Assembly: GCA_006386115.1 (NCBI GenBank)
Contig: VFIW01000025.1
Span: forward strand, 248,001-312,000
Length of the DNA: 64,000 bases
Direction: 5' to 3'
Source of the DNA: Globisporangium splendens
Lineage: Eukaryota; Oomycota; Peronosporomycetes; Pythiales; Pythiaceae
Below are positions 20,486 to 64,000 of this stretch, piece after piece. Position 1 is the first letter of the stretch; each line of letters starts with the position of its first letter. Under the pieces are notes generated by a model. It did no database searches. It was not told the DNA's origin and saw only the letters and a list, made by a program, of their open reading frames with translations. Position numbers and translations under genes: made by a program.

Positions 20486-20941
20486 TTAAGAATTCCTGAG
20501 TCTCATTAACACTGCTGACAGTGAGGTGTTTCTAAGTTTTGACGGTGTGGCACCGATATCATTGTCGAGTAGAGCTGCGACTTGGGACATAAGAATTTGA
20601 TCGTTCCCCCGCGATTCGTCGGTGAGTATCTTCGCACTCTTGGAGTTCATTGCCACGTTGGCGAGAAGATCGGCCATTTTGGTTTGTTCTCGTTTTGTGT
20701 GATTCCAGGAGATCCACGCAAAGTTGGCGATGATTTGGTTTACCCGAACTGATAGTGGCTGCAACTCGGTCTGGCGTATTGAGGCGAACCCGTTCTGGGA
20801 TGCGATAATCATTTGGCTGTCTCCGAAGACTTCCAACTTGACTTCATAGTGCCAAGACTGTCCCTGCAAAAGAGCCGGATTTGCTGAATGGATACAGTAA
20901 CGGTGCAGAAACCAGGCGAGCCACTTCAACCTCCCGTTCAA
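20486..20941 (-). pseudogene. RNase H-like remnant of a retroelement
   Basis: This open stretch of 151 codons reads VFGDSQMIIASQ near residue 38 and HTKREQTKMADLLANVAMNSK near 80. These match the GDS and the late Asp (K-x-AD-x-LAN-x-A) motifs of retroelement and cellular RNase H type 1 domains. The first catalytic Asp and Glu are not seen upstream, so it is a fragment. Its sequence differs from the RNase H of the LINE copies elsewhere in the window, so it belongs to another family. It lies between the second and third transglutaminase genes. Confidence 0.6.
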
Positions 20942-35636: not shown

Positions 35637-35818
35637 TTCTTTTATTTTGGGCAACTTCTATGGTGCAGCTCAACACCTAACCGCACCGTCACCAAACTCA
35701 GACTGTTGTCCGCCTGCCTCACGGGATCCCTTCTGCCCTCGCTCAGCAGCTGGTGTCGCCTCCCTCTCACTTCTGGGTCTGCGTGTCCAGGGGACCTCCG
35801 TCGACACTCACACAAGTC

Positions 35819-35834
35819 GCTCATTCTCCAATTC
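35819..35834 (+). promoter_or_regulatory. Oomycete initiator-type core promoter
   Basis: GCTCATTCTCCAATTC matches GCTCATTYYNCAWTTT at 15 of 16 positions, about 100 bp before the transporter ATG at 35933. Confidence 0.85.
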
Positions 35835-35932
35835 TCCGAGTCTCGCTCACTACCAGCACCTCAAGCTCCAACCTGCCAACAGCAAGCAGCACACTCGGTC
35901 GGTAGCTCCCAAGCCTCGCTCGCTCACTCGCC

Positions 35933-37354
35933 ATGAACAAGTTTCTCGTCCGAGGTCTCGGATTCTTCAACGATGCCTACGACCTCTTCGTCATGAACGT
36001 CGTCAACGTCGTGCTCACGGAGCAGTACGGCAAGCACGTGTACACGTCGCACATGAAGTCGGCTGTGTCGGCGGCTGCGATCATCGGTGCCGTCATCGGT
36101 CAGCTGCTCTTCGGCTTCCTGGGCGACGTCTTCGGCCGCAAGGTCAACATGATCATCACGTGCTGCCTGCTGATCTTCGGTGGCATCCTGTGTACCGTTG
36201 CGTACGCTGGTGACGCGACCAACACGTTGTGGTTCTTGGTCATCGCTCGTGGTGTCCTCGGCGTGGGTATCGGTGGTGAGTACCCACTGGCGGCGACGAC
36301 GACGGCGGAAGACTCGGCGACGCCAGCGGAGCGTAACAAGCGTGTGGCGCTGACGTTCTCGCTCCAAGGTGTGGGTTCGCTCACGGCGTCGATCCTCGGC
36401 AACCTGCTCGTACAGGCGCTCGCGGACGGTCCAAAGGGCACGAACAGCAAGGAGCGTCTCGAGATCGTGTGGCGTCTGCTCTTCGGTCTCGGCGTGGTCC
36501 CAGCGTGCGTCGTGTGCTACTACCGCTTCACGGCGGAGGAGACCGAGGCGTACAAGGCCGTGCAGGAGCGTGGTCAGGCGACGGTCGTCAAGCCAGCTCA
36601 GAAGCGCGCTCAGTTCCTGTTCATCCTCAAGAACTACGGTCTCGGTCTCCTCGGTACGGCCGGCACGTGGTTCTTGTTCGACATTGTGTTCTACGCGCAG
36701 AACTTGTTCTCGGCCAGTATCTTGTCGGTGGTGGGGGTGAAGAACGCGTCGTTGCAGCAGGTGACGACGCAGAACGCGTTCGTGGCGTTGATGGCGTTGC
36801 CAGGCTACTACGTGGCGATCTACTTCATCAACCGTCTCGGCCGCAAGGTGATCCAGCTGCAGGGTTTCACGGTCATGACCATCATCTTCCTCATGTTGGC
36901 GATCTTCTGGGACGACCTCAAGAAGCACTCGGTGCCGTTCATCATCTTGTACGGTCTGGCGCTGTTCTTCTCGAACTTTGGCCCGAACACGTCGACCTTT
37001 GTGATGCCGACGGAGATGTTCCCGACGCCGATCCGCAGTACGTGCCACGGTTTCTCTGCGGCGTGCGGCAAGGCCGGTGCCGCCATCGGTTCGTTCGGGT
37101 TCTCGATCTGGGTGGACACGAGCTTCGGTTACGACGGCGCTTTCTACACGTTCGCTATCATCTCGTTCATCTCGATCCCGTTGACGTGGTTCTGCACGTG
37201 GAACGACGACCGCGCGTCCGAAGAGATCGACGCCGAGTTCTACGAGAAGCTCAACGGCGCCGACGAGTTCACTCGCGAGTCGTTCGCGTCGGTGTCGAAG
37301 CCAGCCGACCTCGAGACTGCTGGTGTGTACAAGCAAACGACCACTCCAAAGTAA
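35933..37354 (+). CDS. PHT1/PHO84-type phosphate:H+ symporter (MFS), left arm of inverted repeat
   Basis: It encodes 473 residues from MNKFLVRGLGFFNDAYDLF. Twelve hydrophobic segments carry the PHS-family signatures GGEYPLAA, WFLFDIVFYAQNLFSASIL and GPNTSTFVMPTEMFPTPIR, with a basic cytoplasmic loop (QERGQATVVKPAQKR) between the two six-helix halves. Expected to co-transport phosphate with protons at the plasma membrane. The protein is almost identical to those at 38267 and 41302. Compared with 38267 it reads GVVPAC for GVIPAC and GLGLLGTAG for GVGLIGTAG. The body is GC-rich with strongly biased third positions, as expected of a highly expressed gene. Its promoter motif lies within the repeated unit, so all three copies should be expressed alike. 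Confidence 0.93.
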   Translation: MNKFLVRGLGFFNDAYDLFVMNVVNVVLTEQYGKHVYTSHMKSAVSAAAIIGAVIGQLLFGFLGDVFGRKVNMIITCCLLIFGGILCTVAYAGDATNTLWFLVIARGVLGVGIGGEYPLAATTTAEDSATPAERNKRVALTFSLQGVGSLTASILGNLLVQALADGPKGTNSKERLEIVWRLLFGLGVVPACVVCYYRFTAEETEAYKAVQERGQATVVKPAQKRAQFLFILKNYGLGLLGTAGTWFLFDIVFYAQNLFSASILSVVGVKNASLQQVTTQNAFVALMALPGYYVAIYFINRLGRKVIQLQGFTVMTIIFLMLAIFWDDLKKHSVPFIILYGLALFFSNFGPNTSTFVMPTEMFPTPIRSTCHGFSAACGKAGAAIGSFGFSIWVDTSFGYDGAFYTFAIISFISIPLTWFCTWNDDRASEEIDAEFYEKLNGADEFTRESFASVSKPADLETAGVYKQTTTPK

Positions 37355-37439
37355 GGGAGAGTGATACTAGAACAACATTGTATGTGAGATGCTTATCTTT
37401 TTTTTATTGTTGGACAAATAAATCGTTATTTGTCGAGAA

Positions 37440-38181
37440 ATTTCTGGTGTCAGTGCATGTCCAAGAGGACTCATTGTGTAAACTAGAATTAGCACGCGCT
37501 TTGCCAGACGTCAAGACGCTGAGCTGTTTCATGTGTCGATACGGCGGCTTGGACATTAACTTAACCAAGCTGTCAGAGACCCTGTAAGCACTATCCCATC
37601 GAAAACAAACTGCCTGCTGCTTTACCGAGCAGGGGGAAAGTATCCTAAATTCAAAGTTTGCTGGCACTGCGCTAAACTTAACCAACAATGTCTGCTCATT
37701 CAAACTCCCAGCAGAAGTACAAAGCAGCGTACGTCGGTGTTTGTCGATGTTTGAGGTGACACTAATAAACACAAGGTCGGGTCGTATTCGATGGAATGCA
37801 TGAATCCGGGGTTGTGCAAACACTTTGAAGGGTATCGCCGTAATTGGCGATACCAGATTCTGGTATCACACTACTGTATAGTGAACTCTGCACAAAGGAG
37901 ATTTCACAGTTGCGAATATTCTGCCTGTCAGCTGTCATGTCTCCTCCTCCACTACAAACGAACAGCGCCACTGACCAGAACGAGATTGGGACCAATTCGG
38001 ACAGGACACTAGTTACAAAGCAATACAGCAGCAGCCAAGATTACCAGAAATTGGCACAGCATCTGATACCTCCAGTTCGCTACTCTCACTAGAGACATGT
38101 TGGCAAAGCCTCAGGGCTATGCCACTCACTGTCTATAGAGCCTTACAAGATATGTGAGCCTGTCATTGAGTTCACAGATAC
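37440..38181. other. Spacer of the inverted repeat
   Basis: 742 bp between the two arms, with the 3' ends of both transporter genes facing it. No coding frame or RNA gene is apparent. Confidence 0.55.
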
Positions 38182-38266
38182 TTCTCGACAAATAACGATT
38201 TATTTGTCCAACAATAAAAAAAAGATAAGCATCTCACATACAATGTTGTTCTAGTATCACTCTCCC

Positions 38267-39688
38267 TTACTTTGGAGTGGTCGTTTGCTTGTACACACCA
38301 GCAGTCTCGAGGTCGGCTGGCTTCGACACCGACGCGAACGACTCGCGAGTGAACTCGTCGGCGCCGTTGAGCTTCTCGTAGAACTCGGCGTCGATCTCTT
38401 CGGACGCGCGGTCGTCGTTCCACGTGCAGAACCACGTCAACGGGATCGAGATGAACGAGATGATAGCGAACGTGTAGAAAGCGCCGTCGTAACCGAAGCT
38501 CGTGTCCACCCAGATCGAGAACCCGAACGAACCGATGGCGGCACCGGCCTTGCCGCACGCCGCAGAGAAACCGTGGCACGTACTGCGGATCGGCGTCGGG
38601 AACATCTCCGTCGGCATCACAAAGGTCGACGTGTTCGGGCCAAAGTTCGAGAAGAACAGCGCCAGACCGTACAAGATGATGAACGGCACCGAGTGCTTCT
38701 TGAGGTCGTCCCAGAAGATCGCCAACATGAGGAAGATGATGGTCATGACCGTGAAACCCTGCAGCTGGATCACCTTGCGGCCGAGACGGTTGATGAAGTA
38801 GATCGCCACGTAGTAGCCTGGCAACGCCATCAACGCCACGAACGCGTTCTGCGTCGTCACCTGCTGCAACGACGCGTTCTTCACGCCCACCACCGACAAG
38901 ATACTGGCCGAGAACAAGTTCTGTGCGTAGAACACAATGTCGAACAAGAACCACGTGCCGGCCGTACCGATGAGACCCACGCCGTAGTTCTTGAGGATGA
39001 ACAGGAACTGAGCGCGCTTCTGAGCTGGCTTGACGACCGTCGCCTGACCACGCTCCTGCACGGCCTTGTACGCCTCGGTCTCCTCTGCCGTGAAGCGGTA
39101 GTAGCACACGACGCACGCTGGGATCACGCCGAGACCGAAGAGCAGACGCCACACGATCTCGAGACGCTCCTTGCTGTTCGTGCCCTTTGGACCGTCCGCG
39201 AGCGCCTGCACGAGCAGGTTGCCGAGGATCGACGCCGTGAGCGAACCCACACCTTGGAGCGAGAACGTCAGCGCCACACGCTTGTTACGCTCCGCTGGCG
39301 TCGCCGAGTCTTCCGCCGTCGTCGTCGCCGCCAGTGGGTACTCACCACCGATACCCACGCCGAGGACACCACGAGCGATGACCAAGAACCACAACGTGTT
39401 GGTCGCGTCACCAGCGTACGCAACGGTACACAGGATGCCACCGAAGATCAGCAGGCAGCACGTGATGATCATGTTGACCTTGCGGCCGAAGACGTCGCCC
39501 AGGAAGCCGAAGAGCAGCTGACCGATGACGGCACCGATGATCGCAGCCGCCGACACAGCCGACTTCATGTGCGACGTGTACACGTGCTTGCCGTACTGCT
39601 CCGTGAGCACGACGTTGACGACGTTCATGACGAAGAGGTCGTAGGCATCGTTGAAGAATCCGAGACCTCGGACGAGAAACTTGTTCAT
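38267..39688 (-). CDS. PHT1/PHO84-type phosphate:H+ symporter (MFS), right arm of inverted repeat
   Basis: It encodes 473 residues and is the mirror copy of the 35933 gene. It carries the same PHS signatures and the same tail ending ETAGVYKQTTTPK. It differs in protein at GVIPAC and GVGLIGTAG, plus silent changes, all within about 325 bp. The copy at 41302 agrees with the left arm, not with this one, at every one of these sites. This points to a patch brought in by gene conversion, or to conversion of the other two copies. Same expected role in phosphate uptake. Confidence 0.93.
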   Translation of the reverse strand: MNKFLVRGLGFFNDAYDLFVMNVVNVVLTEQYGKHVYTSHMKSAVSAAAIIGAVIGQLLFGFLGDVFGRKVNMIITCCLLIFGGILCTVAYAGDATNTLWFLVIARGVLGVGIGGEYPLAATTTAEDSATPAERNKRVALTFSLQGVGSLTASILGNLLVQALADGPKGTNSKERLEIVWRLLFGLGVIPACVVCYYRFTAEETEAYKAVQERGQATVVKPAQKRAQFLFILKNYGVGLIGTAGTWFLFDIVFYAQNLFSASILSVVGVKNASLQQVTTQNAFVALMALPGYYVAIYFINRLGRKVIQLQGFTVMTIIFLMLAIFWDDLKKHSVPFIILYGLALFFSNFGPNTSTFVMPTEMFPTPIRSTCHGFSAACGKAGAAIGSFGFSIWVDTSFGYDGAFYTFAIISFISIPLTWFCTWNDDRASEEIDAEFYEKLNGADEFTRESFASVSKPADLETAGVYKQTTTPK

Positions 39689-39786
39689 GGCGAGTGAGCG
39701 AGCGAGGCTTGGGAGCTACCGACCGAGTGTGCTGCTTGCTGTTGGCAGGTTGGAGCTTGAGGTGCTGGTAGTGAGCGAGACTCGGA

Positions 39787-39802
39787 GAATTGGAGAATGA
39801 GC
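39787..39802 (-). promoter_or_regulatory. Oomycete initiator-type core promoter
   Basis: Mirror copy of the 35819 motif, GCTCATTCTCCAATTC on the reverse strand, 98 bp upstream of the ATG at 39688. Confidence 0.85.
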
Positions 39803-39984
39803 GACTTGTGTGAGTGTCGACGGAGGTCCCCTGGACACGCAGACCCAGAAGTGAGAGGGAGGCGACACCAGCTGCTGAGCGAGGGCAGAAGGGATCCCGT
39901 GAGGCAGGCGGACAACAGTCTGAGTTTGGTGACGGTGCGGTTAGGTGTTGAGCTGCACCATAGAAGTTGCCCAAAATAAAAGAA

Positions 39985-46305: not shown

Positions 46306-47838
46306 AGGGAGTTTGTCAAAGCTCATGTCGTCCACGAGCACAGTCCCACTGTACAGCCTCAAGACGAGGAGCAATCAAGAACGAGCCTGCCCGGCTCGAA
46401 GTCATTTCCCTCAGCGTCTAGAGATAATGGATCGGCAAACCAGCAACCATCATCGGAGCCATCAGCTGATACCACCTCTGGGTACTCTGAAGATCCCTCG
46501 CACTTCGATGTCACGATGTCCTTGGCGGATTCCACGTCGATGGACTCCACAATGCACTTGCAAGATCTGACGGGAGGTGCTGTGACCCCGCCAAATGGTC
46601 AAGCCACTCTCCCTCTGCCAGCAGAGGTGACTAAAGCCTTTCACCAGGAAATGCGCAGTCAAAATGGTACCGAGGATGCAGGCAATGGTCCTCCCTCGAT
46701 GAACCAGCCAACTCCAAGTAGCGCTGACCAAGATCTTGGACACATTGACTCTGCTGAATCTCGAGATGCAGACCCAACGAGTGTCTTTGGTCCCGGGCCA
46801 GAAATCAATGCGGTGATGGGTAGTGGGCTAGGTACAGGGTCGACGGATGATGAACATCGATTCCAGGAACCGGAGCGAGAACCAGATTCCCACTCTCATA
46901 CGTTAAATCGGCCACGGGCACGAAAGATCCCAGAACTTGCGTCCTCAGTTTTAAAAGCAGCGGCTTCAACGACACCAGGTCAATACGAGGCCAGTCAAGA
47001 GTCAACCTTTTCCAATGACAGTGAAAGCGGCGAATTTGAGACGCCTCCTTCCTCACCGTCTCACTCTGTCTAGGGCGATGGGCAAGTACGCAAGTCTCTG
47101 GTTGAACGATTGGTTGGATCGAAAGAGGAGCTCGAACAATTGATGGCTGCTGAACAAGCCCTTCGAAGACAGCATTTTCGTGCAAACAACAAAGCCATGC
47201 ACGACTGGACCACGGCGACTCGACAAAATCGAAGATTCAGCTTGCCTTCAGTTGATCCAAGCGACGTCTCCAAATTGACTGGATGGATTCCCAGTCACGT
47301 GGATGCTCTAAGTGCGCTCATTTGTGCACTGCCTTTTCCACTGGAGGTCTTGCGCATGTTCCCAGTGAAAAAGCTTCTTGATTTTGGGCACAGCATAAAC
47401 AGTCAAGCTCAACGCGCATTAATCCGGCATCACTCAACTGACGATGCAGTTAGCGCGCAAGTGCGAGCCTTTTGTAAGAAATGGGCATCGGCTGTTGACG
47501 CCTGTCCGCAAGGCTCCGCTCGTTGGTCCATGACTGACAACATCAAGCAGTGGAACAGACTTGAAAAGCTAGATGATAGCCTATTGACCGCGACCGTCTC
47601 GCGACCCATTGACCCAGACAAATGGGCAATTCTCAATGTGATAAGTCTTCTACTGCCCAGCATGTTCCCAAAGCACGAAGCCGTTGGTCACGTTATGCCT
47701 GAAACCCGAGCTGAAGAATATTGGCGTTCGTCTTCTCTTCAATCAGCAATTGATGCGATTGTAGGCACGACGACGTCATGGTCGCTATTGGCGCACCAGC
47801 ATGAGCTGGAGGTCCAACAGCGGCACAATCTGAACTAA
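46306..47838 (+). pseudogene. LINE family-1 ORF1, one internal TAG
   Basis: The frame is open from the breakpoint at 46305 to 47838 except for a TAG at 47071-47073; the text on both sides is in the same frame. The first half is Ser/Pro/Thr/Asp-rich and disordered. The second half is helical (WIPSHVDALSALICALPF, CKKWASAVDAC) and may be the RNA-binding part. I see no zinc knuckle or RRM. The first in-frame ATG within the element is at 46516, so the true start may be lost or lie at an unknown 5' end. Confidence 0.7.
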
Positions 47839-47878
47839 AGGCACCCATGGTGCCTCAACTCGCACTGTACTTGGTGGT

Positions 47879-50800
47879 AGTTCAGTGCGAGCAGGGGGAG
47901 ATGGCTCAACTGTCTCTCCGACGGAAATACAGCGTGGAATACAAGGCATATCAACGTATTCCGGCGATGGACTACCGTTGCGACCATATCAACCCACAAC
48001 CCAAGCTCGTCGTGACAACCACCGACCCAGAAGGCGCAGTGCGACAGTCAGTGCTCGCCATGAGCTAACTGTTGGATTCCACACACAGAATGTGATGGGG
48101 TTCTCCAAATCCGATGCCAATCTGAACGCGTGGTTTTCACATTTTCGACAGACTGATGATTCGGGATCATTGGACATTGTCTTTCTCCAAGAAACGCACG
48201 TCCTGGAGACCGAAGTGGCATCAATGCAATCCAGATTTTGTCGAAGTTGGGGTTTTCAGGAACCATCAGAAGAGTCGGATCCCAGACTCTCTCTCTGGTC
48301 AGCTTCCACCGAGCGCAAAGGAGGAGTGGCGATCTTGTTGAATCCCTATTCGTGCATACCTACACTGGCTCCATATAAGCAGGATCAGTGGAATGCGCAC
48401 TGGATGGCAGCTACGGTGACGTTGCGTGGCGAAACGGTGTTACTTCTCAACATCTACGCTCCTTCTGCCGTATTTGCAAGGGAAGCTTTCTACAGAGCAC
48501 TATCAGGTCTCCTCTCGTCACATGATGGACCCATTCTGTGTGGTGGAGACTTTAATTGCACTCTCAACCAGACGGCAGACAGGTCTCACAACAACCACAA
48601 CAAAGTGCACGATTCCAGGGAATTGAAGAAACTGCTCCAGAAATTGGATCTTGTTGATACCCTCGAGGATGATGCTCTTCGCGCCACGGACACACGAGAC
48701 GTCAAAGCATTCCATCGGCAGCATCACACCTACTACTATACACTGCCTTCAGGTGACAGTGCCAGCAGTAGGCTCGACCGATGGCACTGCAGCAATGACC
48801 ATCTCGACTGGGTTCGCAGCGTCTACCAAAGCGTAGCTGGTCCGTTCTCCGATCACAATGGAGTCACGATCCGAGTAGCTGCTCCTGACAAGGTGATCCA
48901 AAGCAAGAAACCTCGAGTTGTCTATCCACTTCCGAAGAATGCAGCGGCGAGTATTGGAAAAGATTTCTTCGAAAAAGCTCATGATCAACTTGATGAATTA
49001 CGTGGACGTTACTATTCGCCTCGTGATTATGCTCTGGCCACAGCAAATTGGTGGGATGAAGCCAAGATCGCGCTCAGGATCGGGTACCTTGAAGCTAAAA
49101 AATCGTACTTTGCCAGATTGAATCAAGGATACAAGAAGAAAATCCAGAGGTTGCAACGACGCCTCTCAGAATCAGAAGTGCAGATGCTCGATCACTCTGG
49201 TGGAGCGGTGGGTGACCACAACGTGGAGTTGTCGCAAGAGTTTCTTACTACCGCCACGAGTATCCGTCGTGCCATTGCAGAATGCAAATCGAAGTGGCAG
49301 GCTTCAAAACGGGACCGCATTTTTCGGGAGCACATGCATCATGAACGAGAAACGAGCAAATCCTTCTACAAGCGTATCTCGACCAAGTTCCTTGACAACA
49401 CTATCTTCACACTCGGTGGCACAGCGACTTACGGACCCATGCGTTCACGAGAACTTGCTGACGATATGGGAGAAGGATGGAAATCAATCATGCAACAGGC
49501 GCCCACTCTGCAAACTGACATCGATCAAATCCTTGATCCAGGAACAGCTATTCCTCCGTCGGACAGATTAGGCTTCCTGCTCAAACCGGTCAATTCGAGT
49601 GAAATTAAACAGGCTGTGAAGAAATGCAAGAGAGGCAAAGCTCACGGTCCTGACGAACTCGGCAACGACTGGTACAGAGACCACTGTGACGAGATTACCG
49701 ACCTATTCGAGCGACTTTTCAACTTGCGGATACCCGAATGCGTTCTACCAAGTTCGTTCAGTGAAGCTCATATTCACTGCATAAAAAAGTCCGTCTCTGC
49801 TGCATCGCCGCTGGACTACAGGCCAATCGCACTCCTCAACTCGGATTACAAAATATTCACACGGATATTTGCAACCAGATTACGAACTGTGCTCCCTTGG
49901 CTTATCCATCACATGCAAGCTGGTTTCGTTCCAGGGCGAGCAATCCCGACGACGATCGATATGTTATTGGCTGCGCAACAGCGGGCCACGAGCGACCCCG
50001 CCATGTCCAGAGCGATCGCGTTGCTCCTTGATTTTGCTAAAGCCTATGATTCAATCGATCGCAGCTTTCTGGCACAAGCGCTCCAGCATCTTGGATTCCC
50101 ATTGAAGTTCGTACACTTAGTGAAGGTGTTACACTCTCAAACCACTTACAAGTTCATTGTAAACGGTTTCCTGTCGAGAAAGTACAACGTAACATCCGGA
50201 ATTCGTCAAGGATGTCCGCTGGCCCCTCTTCTCTTCATCTTGGCGTTCGAGGTTCTTTATCGGAAAATCGAAGCGAGTGACGAAATACACGGCGTTGAAC
50301 TCCAGGCAGCAGGATGCGCAACTGAAGTCAGAATTGGAGGATACGCAGACGACACGACCATTTATCTTAGCGATCCCAAGGATATTAGTGCCGTGTTTGC
50401 AATCCTGGACAAATATGGAGCAGCTTCTGGGCTTCGAGTCAATCGGTACAAATCTGCAGTATTACCGCTGAACAAGGAATATAGCTCCACCGAAGAGTCA
50501 GTCAGTGACATTCATGTGCTACAACGTGAGGAACATTGCCGCTACCTCGGCATCCAAGTCGGACAAACGCCTTCGAATGCAAGTAACTGGTCCAAGTGCA
50601 TCCAAACCTTACGTGTCAGACTTCGACTTGCGCGTCTCAAAACTCACTCTGTCGCCCAACGTGCAGCAATTGCCAGTGCCGTCATCATACCCAAAGTGCT
50701 TTACGTGGCCAGGCACTCCTGGCCATCTACGGCTATTGTCAATCAGCTACACGACCTAGTGAAACAATTTGTCTGGGGCTCAAGGAATGGTAAGCCTGCG

Positions 50801-53183
50801 AAACCGTGGATGAAGGAAGAGCAAGCTGAACTCAAAAAAATGAATGGAGGCTTGTCAGTACCCAACATCAGAACTGAGCTGATGACGATGAGTGCCACAG
50901 CAGTCTCCAAATGGGCACTCGCAACCTCTCACATCGATCAGGTCATCGGGGAAATCTTGCTGCACAACACAAGGGCTTCTTCGACGTACATCACGCCGCT
51001 CGATGCAATCCCAAGGCGGCCACTCCAGCTTCGTGATAACATGTGGACAACTGGCGCGGCATTATGTGCGTCGCTCCATTCTTGACCCTATGAGCCCAGA
51101 GAACGTGACAATGTACGTTGGTGTTACGAGCACTTCAAGTCGACAATTGTGCAGACTCAATGGGACGGCGATGTGTTCCAGATCGACCTCAGCTCTAAAA
51201 TATCTGACAGGCTTCCAGGTATCATCGCTGAAGGACGAAAGCTACGCGGGACATTCTGTGCAGAATGGCTGCCATACATGACCTCGACTGCAGATGGGTG
51301 GCTTCTTGGTTCCAACGGCTCCCCATACAAGCTTGCTCACACATCATTATCAGTTGGAACAGCACAACTGGGTGACATACTTCGATGGGAGTGGATAAGA
51401 CCAGGAGTGCTTAACTTCATCCCAACATGTGGAATATCCGGATTCTCCTGGCCGTCTATTCGAGCGCTCGAGCGGTTATGTGCTACGTTGGTATCCAACT
51501 TCCCACAGCTCCTGTATCGACCACAGCAAACAAATGTGCTTCGGCTGTACAACGGGCAACGTCATTACAACCACGAATGGCATCTGTACACCAGTGAAGC
51601 AACTCTGACCCACGTCGACACGACCCTAGTCAAAGCTACGCACACAGTTCACTCCGCAATGGACTGTGACATCATGGCAACAAGAGACTTGAACGGGCAG
51701 AAGGTGTCGTTCCATGCACATCCACGTTTAACAAGAATCGTGCAACTATGGGGTGGCAACGGACGATACAATACGACCAGATCTTTCTATCGGCAACAAG
51801 TTGCAGCAACGAGGACACATATTGGCAAAGATACTCGAGATGCAGCAGTCAACAAAGCTGTCCAAACAGCAGGATCTCTGTGGCCAGGACTGCAATTAAT
51901 CCAGTGGAGCGAATTACACAACATCCCAGGGATTGCGGTTTATACGGCTCAGACTCTTCTCCGGCTGAAAGCCAACCGACTCTCCATGTGGAACTATGAG
52001 AAAGCTGATCTGTCCTGCTCGAATCCTGAATGCTCCCAAGTTGTCCAATCTTCTGTTCAACATCTATTCCGGGAGTGTCCGAAAGCCAAACTGGTGTGGA
52101 ACTACTTTTATGCGCTATGGGCGAAGATCGGAATCACTCATGGTCACGACCCCGCAATCTGGATCTTCAGTCTGGATCTACCAGATACTCCAAGGCATGC
52201 ATGGACCTCGATCAAGAGACACATTATCGGACACAAGTTCTCCAATGAACATCTCCAAGATCATCTCTATTCCGTCGCACACACGCTGTGGCGATATGTG
52301 AGCGCGTCGCTCATACAATCCATTTGGTGTGCGCATCTGCGACGCATGGATTCGGATCCAATCGAATCGACTGCTGAGATGGCGATCATGATGACCAGAT
52401 TAGAGGCAGGAATGGGAAACCTCACACGACTCGCTGAAGCGCAAGCTGGAGACTCGGACGGTCACACGGTTGCAGCAGTTCTCAAGGCATATGTCGACTG
52501 CTTTCTCAGCCAAACCGACGCCATCCCCTTGACTCAAAGTGATACTCGCGGCGTTTACCTGTTGTTTTTCGATGGTGGATCACGCGGCAATCCAGGACCA
52601 GGAGGGACTGGATCCATCATCGTGCGTGTCCACAAGAACTCGCACACAGCCAGTTTTAATTTGGACCGCCAGCATGGCGTATAGCAGGAAGGACACGACC
52701 AACAACTTTGCTGAGTACTGGGGTCTCATACACGGACTCCGAGAAGCCCAACGCAGTCACTTCGAGCCGTTGTACGTGATTGGAGACAGTGCACTCATTA
52801 TCTCCCAACAGCGAATGCATCGGTCCCCTCGACAGCACCGATTTGCACGTTTATACCAGACAAGTCGACGACTCGCGGATTGCATCGACATCCGAGGATG
52901 GTACCATCACTACCGTGCCTTCAACAAGATGGCGGACTCAGCCGCCAACCTAGCCATGGACACCAGAACCTCAATGCAGGTCCACTTCCCAACTCAAAGA
53001 GCTGCTTTCAACAATCTCACCCAGGATCTTGACAACGACGTCATGCATTGGCTTGTGCGAAGTTCGGAAGACCCAAGGTCATTAGACAACACAAGGCAGC
53101 CTCACATAGGACCAAAAGAACATGCCATCCTGGTCAAAGATTATTTAGCATTCAGAAGTGATCTAGTGCAATCCGCGCTGTAG
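47879..53183 (+). pseudogene. LINE family-1 ORF2: APE endonuclease, reverse transcriptase, RNase H
   Basis: The endonuclease begins at FHTQNVMGFSKSD (about 48075) with FLQETHV, GGDFNC near 48541 and the terminal SDHNGV near 48852. Reverse transcriptase motifs follow: RPIALLNSDYKIF (about 49820), LLDFAKAYDSIDRSF (about 50027), SGIRQGCPLAPLLF (about 50200) and GGYADDTTIYL (about 50337). A knuckle-like Cys region and RNase H (FDGGSRGNPGPGG, AEYWGL, GDSALI, NKMADSAANLA) close the protein. Breaks: TGA at 51083-51085, after which the same frame resumes, and one extra T near 52653 that shifts the frame within RNase H (the intact text continues to 53183). No ATG precedes the endonuclease in this frame; the first is at 48095, inside it. 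Confidence 0.88.
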
Positions 53184-55718: not shown

Positions 55719-57035
55719 ATGTTTTGTTTGTCTAGCTTCAAGCTCAGCTAGACATCTGCATGAGTGTAGTTGCTAAAGCGGACAACGAACGAACGAGTAT
55801 GTGTAGAACTGTTAACTAGGCGCTTTCTAAAAGTCAGTCTGAACGAGCACTGAAACGGGGTGCATGCGAGTCGGTGACTCAGACAAGCGCAAGCTGCTGC
55901 TGCAGTTCTGGTGTTGTTTCGAAAGAACGAGCACGACCAGGCAAGCAAGAGAGTGTGTGCCTTTGGATTTCATAAACGCCCTTTTACTGCCATAAATTTC
56001 GAAATTGTTGCAGAACAACTCAGATTCACAAATTGCATATCTTCGACCGCAAATCGCGCAGACACTGAACCCACAACTTCTTCTGTCGTTTCATCGTCAC
56101 AGTGGACGAGTCGAATCTTCCCATGGCTTCAGGGAAGGTTCAAGACAGCAGATATGAGCCATGGCACCAATCTGCTCTCTCTGTGGTGAACCATCCCAGC
56201 ACAGGGACATAGTATGCTGGAGAAGTGTCAACTTTTTCACTTGGTGTGTCCTGAAATGGGTCCTGAAGCATGTCTTATTTCATGTTGTCGGGATTAAATG
56301 TGAAATTTGCGGTCTACCCCTCAGATTACGCAATACTAAGCCTCAAGACTCAAGCATGATGATAAGGAATCTATTGAACTTAAAGTTTAAGATTTCCCGG
56401 GGAATACAATTGGTAGGTTCTCAGCTATCATATCCTGCCGTAACACAAGCGTTCTCACACTTGCGCCCGGTGTTTTCGTAATTTTCTAGTTTTTCTGTCA
56501 TTTGTAGTTCTTCGTGTGCCGTTTTGTTGGTGGCTTTGTTTGGTGTTTTATGTATGTTGGCTATGCATCGTCAGGCGCACTTGCACTGGTGATTGTCGCG
56601 CTTCGATGCTTCGATCTCGGCTCGAGTCACACGCGCGCACGTGCGTTTGATTGTGACACCGCCTTGGTGAGGCATAGCCGGTTGGCTCTGTCACGGGGTC
56701 TTGTGCTGCTCGGTATGGTGGTCGCAGACAGCAGGGGTCTTGTGCTGCGTCTCTTGTTGGCGACGTTGCCGGTTCGTTGTTCTGCGTGACGGGTGGTCAC
56801 ATACAGCGGGTAATGGTGCGGCGTCCTGGTGGGCGTCGCAGTTGTGCTTCGTGATGGAGTGACCACGACAGCGGGTCCATATTCGTGCTCATATTGGTCG
56901 TGTATTTCATTTCTCACCACCCCAGGGCCTCCAAGAAGGGGGGATTCTCTCCCTGGGATGGGCCGGCCCAAACTGGACCGCTGAGGCTGGAACTGGACCG
57001 CACTTTCGATCTAGCCTTCTACAGGAGAGGCAGCC
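55719..57035. other. Intergenic and possible 5' region of the family-2 LINE
   Basis: No host gene is supported. From about 56500 the sequence becomes G/T-rich and may be the 5' UTR of the downstream element, but I see no boundary. Confidence 0.4.
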
Positions 57036-59258
57036 TTGGTACCAGCTGTTTGTATCGGGAGTACAAGTACCACGACGACAATCGACAGTCCACTGCCAAG
57101 ATCATTGGAAAGGGGCGAATACACTGAACTGAGTATACGAGCCTTTATAAAGAGCGATAAGCGAATGCTTTCTCCTGAGGTCTCCATGACGAATATGGAG
57201 CAACCAAAGGAGGGGGCCGCGCGGAAGGATGCTCCAGAAGGTGTTTCCACGAAGACAGCCACCGCGCTGCGGAGTGGACGTGCGCAAGTCGACGCAGATT
57301 TGGCTGTACGAGCGTCGCAGCACGAAGAAGGGGGAGCCCGAGATTCTGTGCATACGAACGATACGGCCCAATTAAAAGCAGGAGGACAAGACAAGATAGG
57401 GACCATTGAGGAGGGCACGACTCCATCGCGTGCGGAAGGCTCTCGAAAAGAAGCGTCGACGGAGACCACGCAAGTGGAGAGATACGAAGCCCTCGCCGCG
57501 AAATTGCGTGTGTCATCAAACGCGGTGAACAAAGTGGAGATTGAATACGAAGTGCGGTTAATGTTCACGGCTCTTTACAACGGGATGCGGATCCTTGAGC
57601 AACCAAAAAAGGCGAACGACAATTACCCAACACTCAATGGAGAAGAAGCGGACGCACTGGTAGACCTTTTCCGTCTACTGGCAATTGAAAAGGGAAAATC
57701 CTTTCCGGAGTGGAAGCGGACGATCCAAGATTTATGCAAGGATATGCACCGGTCATCGTGGACAGTGGTAGCGCTTATCCAAAAGAGAATTGACCAGAAC
57801 AAGCTGGCAGAAGAAACCAAGGCTTCACCATGGGGTTCGCAAACCAGCACCAACAGTCAAACAAAAGCCAAAGAGCAAGGCACCCAGCCCTTCACCTTCA
57901 AATCGGACAAATACTCGGAGGAGGAACAAAGCAACATGATCCGACACTGCAAACAAAAGTTCGAGTACTCAGTAACCCTGCGTCAGCCGACAACGATGGA
58001 ATGGGAAATCATGCTAGCGATCGTGGAAGGCGAACTCCTGATTCGACACCTGCCTCAATTCCTACGGCGAGTGTGTGATGGGGACACCCTTTTCCGCTTC
58101 CAGAACACCATCGCAGCTCAGGTGGAAGAAGAGCTGGTCGGCAAATTATCGGATGCAACGCAGGTTTACAAAGATCACCAATCGACCGGACGAATCGTGG
58201 AAGCCATCTTGCAAGCAGCGAGATACCGAAATGACGGCAAAATGGAAGAGACAATGGCGATGCTGAAAGACCTCAAAGCTGCGGAATATAATGACAGTAC
58301 TCATTCTCTTCACTTCTATTTCTTTGACAGGAGCACAGCGGCGAAATGGAACAAAATGACGATCCCCTTCCGACGCCAATTGGTGCAGCTCATATCCGCG
58401 CACCAGACGGAGACAACCGGAGAGCGACAGGAGGCAAACAACGTTTGGAACAGGCAATTGGGAGCGGACGGGCTACAGAATGCAGAATCGAGATCGAGGT
58501 ACAAAATTCAGCTTTTGAACACTGCTCGCTCAATGAATATGGCCTTGTTTTTAGAATACTTGAAGCAGACGACAGGCAAGCGATTCTACGCCTACCCACT
58601 TGATCAGTACGGTCCAAGATCCAACTAATCGCAGTGGTGGGAGGTGCTCTTTGAAGACGAATTGTGTCCAAAAGCGCTTATCGATGTCAGACGAATTATT
58701 TGGCGAGGGCGAACGCTCATCCTTCACCACGCATCCAAGTATCGAATTGCTCCTTGTTTAATCTGCGGGGCAGCGGGACATTTCGCGCGAGCATGTAAGG
58801 CAACGGAAGAGGAACTAACAACTAACAACTGTATTTACGCAGGTGATGTGATCGTGAGTAAACTTCCGAGAAAGCCAGCCACTTTCACAAGTGCAGCGGA
58901 AATAAAAGAGTCGGTCTCAGACAGTATCGACAAAGAGAAACAGCCACTTCAACCCGCAGCAGAGAGTCCTCACGCCAGTGAGGAAAACAAGCCGAGCGAG
59001 AACGCGAATCTCGTGACGCCTGACGAGACCAACACGTCCAGCCCACAACCGAACTCCAACCCAAAAATCCAACAAAAAATGCATCGTTTACAGTGGGAAC
59101 AGGAATTTCAGGACAACAAATCGGCAATCTCAAAGAACAGGCGAAGGCGAAACCAAACGGCGCAGCAGCGAATACAAAAGGACCCGCGTCAAAGGCAAGC
59201 CAGAAAAATGGACCAAACCAGATTTCCAAGGAGGACATCCGATGGGCAAAAGAACTGA
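57036..59258 (+). pseudogene. Family-2 LINE ORF1, gag-like with CCHC zinc knuckle, one internal TAA
   Basis: The frame is open at 57036-58625 (530 codons) and, past one TAA, at 58629-59258 in the same frame. The N-terminal 150 residues are charged and disordered, and the middle is helical and gag-like (FYFFDRSTAAKWNKMTIPF near residue 430). After the TAA comes the zinc knuckle CLICGAAGHFARAC near 58765-58806 (C-x2-C-x4-H-x4-C), which binds RNA in LINE and retroviral gag proteins. The last 60 codons are likely out of frame: the true sequence shifts to the OTU frame around 59062-59080. The initiating ATG is uncertain; several in-frame ATGs follow 57036. Confidence 0.78.
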
Positions 59259-61161
59259 TGCGCTTTCGACGAGATATGGACGAGCTGATGAAGGTGCACG
59301 TGGAAAGACAAGCCGAGCTCAACCCGAACCGTAACGACATCATGGACTGGGATGGGGAGTACACGCTTCAAGACGTGATGGAAGCCAACGGACTTGCAGA
59401 AGCAACGACACCACCTACCGGAAATTGCCAATTTTATGCAGTGGCGGAAGCGATGCTCCAAATCACGCATGACAACATGGCCAATGAGAAGCTGCTCGAG
59501 GCAACGGCGAGCAGAATCAAGCAAAGTATGAACGCGGCCGCACGTCTCAACTTCGATCTTGAATTCCCTGAAGGAACGCATCTGGGAATACTCGAAGCAT
59601 TGGGGAGAGGGGATCGAAAAATGAGCCCAAAAGAAAGGAAAGCAGATGTTCTCGACTATTTCAATGATATCGCAAGCAGCTCCTCCAGCCGATCGTCGAC
59701 GCTGCCAGGGTCCATGTGGGGTGGACCGGAGTCCTTGCGGATGGCTGCCAAGGCTTTGCAGAGAAAAGTCTTCGTGCTCATCGAGACAACGTACAGAAAC
59801 CGAAAAGGGTTTGCAATTTACAAGCCACAATCCAGAGTCCACGCAGGAGGCCAGTTTCTGTCAGCCAAAGAGCATGCGTGCACGGGGAAGCAATGGGAAG
59901 ACGAGCTTCGTCAGGACAGAATCGAAGCAGAGACTACGAGCAGTCCACTTCCAATTGTGATGAAATTCGCAAAAGAACACTACAACAGTCTGCATTTCAG
60001 AACCCTAAACGAACCATCGTCACCGGCGAATATGACGAGCTCCTCGTTAGCGAAGCATCTCCAAGGATCCGAAAGGAGCAAGACGGAGTTCAAGACTGAC
60101 CGATCCGGCCAATTCGACTTCGAACCAGTTGCGGAGGATTCAATGGAGGAAAGCGACGATTCCAGTTTGGAAGATTTAGAGGTGGCTCCATCGCTGGACG
60201 AACGAGAAAAGTTCGAGCCAAACCAGCTCAGCGGACATCACGGCTGGTTGTTCGCATCTCAGGAGAATCAGCTTGTGGTGTATCACTCGCCCACAACCGA
60301 GTTACCTCCACAACCCAGGAAGCGAGATAGAGACGAAACCCTGATGCTCACAGCGGGAGATGGTGACAACGCGATGAACCTGAACAGCCTCAATGTCCCC
60401 CTCAAGAAAACCAGAACGCTCTCGAGACGTTTGGCGATCGAAGGAGACTCCATGCAGAAACGCAGAGACCTCGAGCGCACGCTGCAGGAGCATTGGGAAG
60501 GGTTCCAGGAGCAATGGAAACAAGAAACCAAATGCCCCTTTCCTCTGCTCTCGTCCAATCATAATGTATGGACGCAGGCAGCTCTCAATGAATGGGAGCG
60601 AATTCTAGCGATGTTGAAGACGTCGCCAGGGCCGCATCATGTGCTGAACCACCTCAGAGGGCCAACCCTAGTGGACTTGACACAAGTACTGCGTGAACAG
60701 GTGATTGAGGAAGGACTCAAACGTCTTTTATACCGCACCGATGAAGCAGAAACCAAGGTATGGATTACAGGTTGGTTTGACAGGATTGCAACGGCAACCA
60801 CGAAGGAACAACGGGCGGCACTACTCAACTCCAAGGAAGACTGGTCGATGCTAGGAAGAATGAAGTACGGTGGTCTCGAAGTTTTGCGACTTTGTCACCC
60901 GACCCAGCAAGAGAAGCTCGCCGCTACATCATCTGCACAGTGGTGTATGAGGAGGAGCTGCAGACGTTCAGGTCTAGCGACGCCGAAGACCCAGACAACC
61001 TGTACGAGGCGATTGAAGACTTCTGTGCGATATTGAAGCAAACCAGAGAACTCAAAGCAGCCTTCAAGAGTGGAGAGGAGCTCAGCGAATGGTCAGCTCT
61101 ATCGGTGATCATGGCTCAAGTCACCATGGAAGTGGACTCGGTCGAGCCCTCAAGGTACTAA
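59093..61161 (+). pseudogene. OTU-like cysteine protease region of family-2 LINE
   Basis: In this frame TPPTGNCQFYAVAEAML places the OTU nucleophile Cys at codon 59426-59428, in a motif that is GNC-x-F-x-A-x-A in OTU deubiquitinases. IVMKFAKEHYNSLHF ends the domain with the catalytic His at 59978-59980 in the typical HYNSL context. Between them GSMWGGPESLRMAAKALQRKVFVLI matches the OTU W-G-x-x-x-E-L-x-A-L-A block. The usual Asp before GNC is Thr here. After the OTU domain come an acidic stretch and basic clusters (PRKRDRDE, LKKTRTLSRR) that may be nuclear signals. The frame shifts near 60890; its continuation ends at 61161 (VEPSRY). Role inferred: polyprotein cleavage or deubiquitination. Confidence 0.8.
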
Positions 61162-61210
61162 AGGCACGACACCAACAGGTAACCAAGATGGCAGTAGCCC
61201 AGGTACAGAA

Positions 61211-64000
61211 ATGTACGCCGCGCTACATGCCCTCAAGAATGCATTTTACAAAAACCAAAAAAAGGAAAAAAGATCATGTCCTAACACGCTACGGGTATTA
61301 ACTCAGAACGTGTGCGGATTCAAAAAGAAAGAACGAACAAAATGGTTAGAGGATCTCAAGGGGGCACTAACCGCAGAAAAGTATGATATCATTTATTTAC
61401 AGGAAACGAGGATCACCACAGCCAAAGAAGAACGCAGACTCCGACAATACTGGAACCGAATATGGGGGATTACAAACCTGGACGAAGCAACGTCCTTTTG
61501 GTCCATCCATCCAGACGCGACCGGCGGAGTTGCAATACTCACAAATCCGAAGACAATTAGCGAAACAAAACTGATCGAGGAATCCAAGTGGACAAATCGC
61601 ACAGTCGCTATCAAGTCCAAGGGAGTGGTGTGGATTAACGTGTACGCACCCAACAAGAAATCAGAGCGAGAACACTTCTTCCGACGCCTAAACGAGGAGT
61701 TCGGGACTCATCGTGCAGCAGCAGTGCTCGGAGGTGACTTCAATTGTGTGCTCGACAAGCAACGAGACCGGTACCAAAGAGGAGTTCTGCTACCGATGCA
61801 ATGCGAAAGTGCAGAACTGAGAAGATTAGTGACGGAGTGGAACATACACGACGCACGGGAGCTAGTGGAGGATCCGGAGTGGCCAGTGTAGCGAGAACCG
61901 ACGGAGCATTTCACATACTGGAGAAAAAACTCAGCCAGTCGACTTGACCAATTCTATATCGCAGGAAATCTGGGAAGCGCCGTGCAATGGGAGCCCATAG
62001 AGCTACCCAAGCGCTACTCGGATCACCAAGCAGTGGTGCTGCATATGAAATGGACGAGCCAACCGCAGAGACCAAGGAAGGTGAACAAGTGCAGGTACCC
62101 GATACGTACTTCGCGTCCTGATTTGGTGCGGACTGGAGTGCAACAGGCAATCAGTCGCGAGCTGGAGCTGATGCAGAGTGAAGGACCAATCGAGTGGAGC
62201 CATCTGGAGAAGCGTATCATCCAAGCAATACTGAGAGTAAGTCGAGCAGAGAAGCGGCAAGTGCGAAGATACCAGCAAAAGTTGGAGGATCAGCAGCACC
62301 AACCTGTGAAACGCTCAAGGCGCCAGCTGATCGAAGAACAAGCAAACGCGGCAAGAGAGGCAGCAGAGTTTAAATTCGGTAAGTATATGCAAGCAACGCA
62401 GGGGGATGTTCGTCACTTCTTTCGGAGGATCGCCAACTGGCAGCGGGATCAAACAATTTCGCGATTGGAACCGACCCCCGGAAGGTACCACCCACCAAAC
62501 GCGAGTCTAGCGGACATCATGGGGGCTGAGTGGCACCAAATCACCGGCCAGAGCCATGCTGCGGTCCCTCCGCACAAGGCTGGACAGCGATTCGATGCAC
62601 TGGTGTACATTCCGGAAACTCGGAAAGTCACGGAAGCGCAAAACCAAGACTTGATGGCACCCATTACTGAGAAAGAAGTACGAGAGGCAATCGCGGCTTT
62701 ACATCGGCATAAGGCAGGTGGCGTGGACAGTCTGAACAATGACTTCTACAAGGATTGCGAGGACGTGATGGTCGACGTTTTGGTGCGGGAATTCAACAAC
62801 ATCCAACGCGGGGCACCCATGCCAAGATCATTCGGTCAAGGAATCGTTATTCCGTTGCGCAAGAAAGGAGATTCACCAAATCCCCTCGATTACAGACCAA
62901 TCACTCTGCTTACGACCACATACAAGTTGTTTGCAAAAGTCCTAGCAACAAGGTTGCAAGACATCCTTCTGTGGATCATCGGAGAAGAACAACAAGGCTT
63001 CGTACGCGACCGACTGATGGAGAACGCGATCCTCATCATGCAAGCCGCATTGGATAAAGCGTACCACAGCAGCACTGAAGGGTTCGATGACGCTCCGGGA
63101 ATTGTGATGCTTGACTTCATGAAGGCTTACGACACATTGGACAGAGACTTTCTGTACCTTGTGCTGAGCAAGTTCGGCTTTGGGCGACAATTTGCGGATT
63201 TAGTACGTCGAATGCACACGGACACTACGGCGCAGTACCTGGTGAACGGTGAACTGTCGAGAGAATGGGAGGTCAAGTCGGGTATTCGTCGAGGTTGCCC
63301 CCTGGCCCCTCTGCTGTTTATCGTTGCCGCGGAGATTCTCGCACTGGCAGTACAACAAGACCCCTATCTGGATGGAATTCGTGTGACCAGATCAGGAGCA
63401 GAACCCCATCTTATTTCGACCTTCGTCGACGACTCTGCTGTCTTTTTGAAACAAGGGAGACAGCTGCTTCGGTTGATGCAGCTGCTGTCCGAGTTTGGCC
63501 AGCAATCAGGTCTGCACGTGCAACCAACGAAAAGCAGCTACATCTGTCTCAACACAGCAGTAGTCCAAGAACAAAGATGCGGCATTCCAATCCTGAAGCA
63601 TGGAGAGACGGTGAGGTACCTTGGCATCCAAATAGGAACCGGGAACATCACGCAGGCTAATTGGGAGGACCGCCTGCAAAAGCTCCGAACAAGACTGATT
63701 ATCGCGACCAAAGTCTCCAACAGTGTGGTGGGGAGAGTGCTTATGCTGAATTCCGTCATGCTGCCGTCGATTCTGTTCACTGCCGGCTACATCAAGCCCC
63801 CAGCGAAGGTCGTGGATCAGCTAGTGAATCTACAAAAGCAATTTTTGTGGCAATCGACACTCGGCACAGACGGCACGAGGCACAAGGTGAGTCCTTCCCT
63901 GCTCTACCTGCCGGTCAAGGAAGGAGGGATTGGTCTCTATTCAATACCTCTGGCAATAAAGCGACAAGCGATGCGGCGGACAACTCGGTGGCTACAGCGA
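61211..64000 (+). pseudogene. Family-2 LINE ORF2: APE endonuclease and reverse transcriptase, partial, one internal TAG
   Basis: The endonuclease starts LRVLTQNVCGFKKKERTKW near 61289, with YLQETRI and GGDFNCVLDKQRDR, and after a TAG at 61889-61891 resumes in the same frame (YWRKNSASRLDQFYI, SDHQAV). Reverse transcriptase motifs are NPLDYRPITLLTTTYKLFAK near 62878, MLDFMKAYDTLDRDFLY near 63109, SGIRRGCPLAPLLF near 63277 and FVDDSAVFL near 63421, where FVDD replaces YADD. The thumb follows (RYLGIQIG near 63616). The frame is open to the window end; any RNase H would lie beyond. The first ATG may be at 61190 or 61211. Confidence 0.85.

Follow-up and report, generated by a model that had tools for sequence, protein, structure and literature searches.

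Introduction

Long interspersed nuclear elements (LINEs) encode proteins known above all for binding RNA, nicking DNA and reverse-transcribing. The Dualen/RandI LINEs of Chlamydomonas (work of Kojima and Fujiwara in 2005) reportedly carry a cysteine protease as well, alongside an apurinic/apyrimidinic-type endonuclease (APE). Here we describe another non-long-terminal-repeat (non-LTR) element with an APE and a putative cysteine protease, a common LINE of the plant-infecting oomycete Globisporangium splendens whose first open reading frame (ORF1) encodes a predicted OTU-fold domain, a kind of protease domain that in most cases takes ubiquitin off proteins. The copy of departure lies in a stretch of 64,000 nucleotides (contig VFIW01000025.1, positions 248,001 to 312,000, forward strand), hereafter the window, for which a sequence-only reading had proposed an OTU-like protease between a CCHC gag and the APE.

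The closest described elements are the oomycete L1 elements with an archaeal-type RNase H (Ustyantsev et al. 2017, PMC5348765; cited, like the other papers below, from parts of the source), which were undetected in the Saprolegniales genomes examined there. As described in its main text, they share with the present element an L1-type reverse transcriptase (RT), an APE, CCHC motifs, a C-terminal RNase H with Arg and hosts in the Pythiales and Peronosporales. They differ in that an OTU is present here in ORF1, and an OTU-like stretch also occurs in an element from the Saprolegniales, the order in which that study found no such L1; the term “OTU” occurs 0 times in its main text, supplements aside. 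In the extracts cited, Dualen possesses both a restriction-like endonuclease (RLE) and an APE (PMC4640811), a description that sets it apart from our element, which has an L1-like RT and for which no RLE match turned up in Pfam scans, Pfam coverage of RLE being unchecked.

Proteases of the ubiquitin/SUMO type are also found in other non-LTR elements, NeSL and Utopia-1_TSP, but these have an Ulp1-like protease, an RLE endonuclease and nematode hosts (PMC4640811). Ginger1 (PMC2836005) and Helentrons (PMC4067079) are mobile elements with an OTU domain or ORF; they differ in being DNA transposons, with the OTU at the end of the transposase or in a separate ORF. New here is an L1-type LINE with an OTU in ORF1, whereas OTU and Ulp1 proteases in other mobile elements were known before. 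No report of an OTU in an L1-type LINE was found in the open-access literature searched, which is weak evidence of absence, with Repbase and the Dualen paper lying outside that search.

Results

The frame at window positions 59024-61036, open for 670 amino acids (aa), contains both GNCQFYA (from 59420) and EHYNSL (from 59975), and the proposed gap of 184 residues between Cys and His was reproduced. The stretch matches the Pfam OTU profile (PF02338) at E 0.00086, though with 20.3 bits; since this is under the cut-off of 23.3, the window sequence alone is no more than suggestive of an OTU. Six of the seven members of the alignment termed A3 match the same profile at E ≤ 10 (best 1.1e-5), and one relative, L022, scores 23.4 bits, just over the cut-off. 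With held-out profiles, E-values of 2.6e-7 to 3.6e-31 were obtained for the OTU types of the main family, L022, L036 and L046; shuffled decoys reached E 0.14 to 5.2 at best in these four runs, from which L021 was left out. Comparison with three host OTUs by hhalign gave P 2.2e-6 over only 28 columns, and searching the PDB by phmmer with the OTU sequence by itself gave no OTU match.

The fold predicted by AlphaFold2 (AF2) is that of an OTU. In the model, the Cys of GxCxxxA (residue 36) stands at the start of a helix (36-46), and the His, followed by an aromatic residue, at the start of a late strand (220-226), as in OTU proteases. Alignments A1 and A3 put the later His of SLHF in the catalytic column (H225 in A3), against H220 in A5; the His of EHYNSL was chosen as catalytic because of the strand-HYN pattern and the model. 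The Cys is invariant, and families that share about 16-20% identity still have the His-aromatic pair. Compared with the OTUs of nairoviruses and tymoviruses and with cellular OTUD3, the element domain, known from sequence and a model, shows 9-20% sequence identity among the matches listed. The predicted fold, the held-out profile tests and the Pfam matches of the A3 members bear out the OTU-like domain proposed earlier, and we conclude that the element carries a domain that is, as modelled, of the OTU fold.

The structure of the whole element was derived from eight copies in the G. splendens genome (53.3 Mb, 195 contigs), six of which have both ends. The full-length unit measures ~9.28 kb and starts with (C)ACTTTCGATCT; its 3' end carries a CT-rich simple tail instead of poly(A). 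Two of the eight copies, including that of the window, stop early on the 3' side. Shared flanks of 15-18 bases border four of the six copies with both ends (C119b, C173b, C184 and C135), while in C186 the shared flank has 13 bases with one mismatch and in C173a it runs into the CT tail. Target-site duplications are therefore of variable length, as in the L1 group. Because C173a and C173b have flanking DNA in common, they may not be independent. Six of the eight copies have ORF1 as a single open frame, 1,379-1,399 aa long between stops (1,382 aa in one example); in three (C119b, C186 and C173a), all of them with an open ORF1, ORF2 is open as well, over 1,709 aa. The domains follow one another as gag, CCHC, OTU and C-terminal region in ORF1, and as APE, RT, a long spacer and RNase H in ORF2. 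The gag-OTU-APE-RT order proposed for the window was found, with the CCHC after the gag, but the OTU belongs to ORF1 and not to the APE-RT protein in copies with an open ORF1; a place within the ORF2 protein was rejected, as main-family copies have the OTU in ORF1.

At least 111 genome matches were obtained with the OTU piece of the window. The whole query is covered by 59, and 54 of these lack an internal stop; 16 of the whole-query matches have at least 97% identity and the other 43 have 83-91%, which indicates two main subfamilies. A 3'-end fragment of the family, 97% identical to the C-terminus of ORF2, lies elsewhere in the window (20489-20851, minus strand).

Affinity to L1 is apparent in ORF2, where the APE (Pfam Exo_endo_phos, E 9.9e-8) lies downstream of the OTU and upstream of an L1-like RT (RVT_1; Table 1). 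Against the PDB, this RT matches the LINE-1 ORF2 protein at E 6.7e-42 and the named R2 chains at E 1.7e-14 or worse. The C-terminal RNase H (RVT_3, E 4.2e-13; RNase_H, E 7.6e-6) is of the Arg, or archaeal, type. Its motif KREQNKMAD contains the Arg, which we take to occupy the H/R position of the RNase H motif. The Arg feature itself comes from the main text of PMC5348765.

The OTU is under strong purifying selection, with a constraint as strong as that on the endonuclease. Nei-Gojobori counts between five ORF1s per subfamily, picked for open frames, gave ratios of nonsynonymous to synonymous change (dN/dS) between subfamilies of 0.13 for the OTU and 0.24 for gag. The linkers on either side of the OTU had 0.25 and 0.62, and the C-terminal region had 0.19; for ORF2 (one sub and two main ORF2s) the values were 0.13 for APE, 0.17 for RT and 0.19 for RNase H. 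Within the main group the OTU ratio is 0.05, and within the sub group it is 0.34, a weaker constraint. The Cys and His motifs are present in all 10 of the ORF1s used.

Four more OTU-carrying ORF1 types occur in the same genome (L021, L022, L035-L037 and L046-L047). Downstream of the OTU, homology between these types and the main family is no more than suggestive (hhalign P 0.02; for Aphanomyces astaci P 9e-4, or 3e-5 with a pooled profile). The RT tree comprised 34 rows of oomycete, plant, fish, algal, fungal and metagenome LINE RTs (35 were chosen, Raphanus being dropped beforehand). The window-family RT falls within a 21-row clade (support 99/99) made up of 9 named oomycete rows, which are all those of the tree, and 12 metagenome proteins. 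OTU-bearing rows are present in both branches of this clade (88/68 and 96/87), so the OTU is probably ancestral in it and not a fresh capture. Outside G. splendens, the A. astaci protein P0071 has an OTU-like stretch in the same protein as APE-RT; its profile-profile score is 41.2 (P 1.8e-5), against 25.1 for the best of 100 shuffles and 18.5 for the best of 55 other LINE segments. The end of P0149, a CCHC protein of Phytophthora fragariae, matches the first third of the domain (profile-profile P 8.5e-7). In a third protein search, few further proteins from beyond G. splendens came up, and none of them contained a complete OTU.

A sister family lacks the domain. The search with the OTU region of L022 returned 106 rows, 48 of which match only the part after the OTU, and no OTU was found in the open frames of at least 60 aa of eight such loci cut out (L038-L045). 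An OTU-less ORF1 of 1,198 aa can be aligned with L036 before and after the domain, which it lacks. Since the family groups with the OTU-bearing L022 in the RT tree (100/97), secondary loss is likelier than never having had an OTU. Relatives without the motifs, named beforehand as a finding that would tell against the protease, do exist; nested next to an OTU-bearing family, they are best read as a loss. The window holds a member of this family, oriented like the OTU LINE and ~6-11 kb upstream of it; weaker matches extend to 52973. On contig G000:C184 (loci L024 and L029), an OTU LINE with a 17-18-base shared flank sits inside an OTU-less LINE, so movement of the OTU family postdates that OTU-less copy. 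A further match to the OTU-less family (G000:C140:1115690-1115944, minus strand) lies in a 2,949-aa open frame, perhaps a fused ORF1 and ORF2.

The features of the window are collected in Table 1. The window copy extends beyond the window, its homology to full-length copies ending at contig position 313327, 1,327 bases past the window end. In its ORF1 the reading frame changes twice and meets an in-frame stop near 58626, and a stop at 61889-61891 interrupts its ORF2. The FVDD polymerase site read earlier from the sequence is present.

Table 1. LINE features in the window (window coordinates)
Feature	Position	Strand	Basis
5'-truncated sister LINE (OTU-less family), with ORF1 end and APE-RT	46306..50839	+	tblastn, 96% identity
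OTU-bearing LINE, window copy	57001..64000	+	5' end common to other copies; full-length copies ~9.28 kb
ORF1 region	57165..61161	+	gag - CCHC - OTU - C-terminal region, single open frame in other copies
CCHC zinc knuckle (CLICGAAGHFARAC)	58755..58796	+	Pfam zf-CCHC E 0.011, under cut-off; sequence
OTU-like cysteine protease domain	59321..60034	+	
Predicted catalytic Cys (TGNCQFYA)	59426..59428	+	C36 invariant in alignment A3 (7 sequences); 10/10 ORF1s
WGG motif, OTU core	59717..59725	+	W133 invariant in A3; matched in host OTUs (hhalign) and viral OTU chain 6dx5_B
Predicted catalytic His (EHYNSL)	59978..59980	+	Pairs with NHFDP of Aphanomyces element in A5, near-invariant column H220
ORF2 (APE - RT - ... 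RNase H)	61211..64000	+	1,709-aa open frame in three other copies
FVDD polymerase site	63422..63433	+	RVT_1 match, E 2.7e-25; sequence

Elsewhere in the window, an inverted repeat of 1,810 bases (35637-37446 and 38175-39984; 99%) has long open frames on both strands, and further copies related to it lie at 26-27, 30-32 and 41-43 kb. Dense GTTGGC-type short repeats occur at 17469-18304 inside long open frames on both strands. In NCBI records, many ORFs of this LINE bear the name Rxlr effector protein, and others D-3-phosphoglycerate dehydrogenase or Short chain dehydrogenase (P0003, P0005, P0009, P0052 and others); RxLR effector counts of the G. splendens genome may be inflated by LINE ORFs.

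Discussion

On balance, we think it probable that this oomycete L1-type (APE) LINE uses the OTU-fold cysteine protease domain of ORF1 as a deubiquitinase acting in cis for its ribonucleoprotein (RNP). The CCHC gag ORF1 protein would coat the element RNA, and the OTU of ORF1, working in cis, would strip ubiquitin from the ORF1 and ORF2 proteins or from neighbouring host factors. This could keep the RNP intact under the ubiquitin-proteasome control of the host until target-primed reverse transcription can take place. Those RNA-virus OTUs that have a part in replication would provide the model for such a role.

The main rival to a cis-acting deubiquitinase is self-cleavage, in which the OTU would be a processing protease that cuts the ORF1 polyprotein (gag / OTU / C-terminal) or, in single-ORF relatives, releases the upstream part from APE-RT. 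In the extract cited, PRO of turnip yellow mosaic virus (TYMV) is an OTU-fold enzyme that combines the activities of a processing protease and of a ubiquitin hydrolase (PMC3744425); ORF1 is long, the linkers flanking the OTU evolve faster than the domain, and P0071 joins an OTU-like stretch to APE-RT in one protein. Yet in the OTU-less sister the remainder of ORF1 still forms one frame, and we regard cleavage as unlikely. To our knowledge, Gag processing is generally not needed by LINEs, which also speaks against it. Action on host chromatin or repair factors such as histone ubiquitin at the target site, easing integration, would parallel the repair and chromatin-signalling roles proposed, in the extracts cited, for the OTU/Ulp1 of Ginger transposons (PMC2836005) and the OTU of Helentrons (PMC4067079), but is improbable with the main-family OTU in ORF1 rather than in the endonuclease protein.

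Slightly less probable again is a catalytically dead OTU retained as a binding module. No third catalytic residue is conserved: two positions after the His, the main family has N (HYN) and other element OTUs have S, T, V, Q or D. The Asp of DGNC is not conserved either, Thr, Asn, Leu or Ser taking its place in element OTUs. These substitutions count against a working protease, but the conserved Cys and His-aromatic pair favour one, and TYMV PRO is described as active without a third catalytic residue (PMC3968130). That the motifs coincide by chance, with no OTU domain behind them, has next to no probability: the window copy does score under the Pfam cut-off and single-sequence phmmer does miss any OTU, but this candidate was rejected on the predicted fold and its structural matches, the L022 score, the held-out tests and the selection on the domain.

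Several further points weigh against the deubiquitinase role or against an ancestral OTU. The first AF2 run (input of 19 relatives from the database, the least similar of which has 68% identity across the domain) reached a pLDDT of 40 and was not used, the second had a mean pLDDT of 47 to 75 over five models, and Foldseek TM-scores were modest, at 0.30-0.47 by query among the matches listed. Ubiquitin is a candidate substrate by virtue of the fold, and by analogy with RNA-virus OTUs, some of which also cut polyproteins, the role may extend beyond deubiquitination. The ORF1 sample behind the dN/dS values was preselected for open frames. The abundant OTU-less sister family persists without the domain, so the OTU is either dispensable in some settings or supplied in trans. 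In the RT tree, OTU states are known for only some rows, most other rows having ORF1s that were not seen. With profile HMMs, P0071 reached only 10.0-11.0 bits (E 0.25 and 0.12), where its own best shuffled decoy had 5.6 bits and decoys with other profiles had up to 11.1; its link rests on profile-profile scores, the alignment and its help to the AF2 model, the last being partly circular. The P0149 match is limited to the first third of the domain.

As to origin, the sequence-only reading had left the choice between a separate lineage and an independent capture. A separate lineage fits best, given the L1-like RT and the 21-row clade, and a fresh capture is disfavoured; recent capture in G. splendens was rejected in view of the several divergent types in its genome and the apparent relatives in two other genera. 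One ancient gain of the OTU is the simplest reading, although the domain may have passed horizontally from one oomycete to another or been gained repeatedly.

In summary, a strongly constrained protease domain in several oomycete L1-type families points to a step at which the element must fight or use the ubiquitin system; as a sister family has cleanly lost the domain, this step can be tested by comparing families. Tentatively, and at rather less than even chance, oomycete L1-type LINEs may have owned an RNP-shielding ORF1 deubiquitinase since before the Saprolegniales split from the Peronosporales/Pythiales, with one sister family having shed the OTU and living by another route or in trans. 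If this is true, the OTU-plus and OTU-minus families of one genome would offer a natural experiment on how ubiquitin serves a protist in defence against LINEs.
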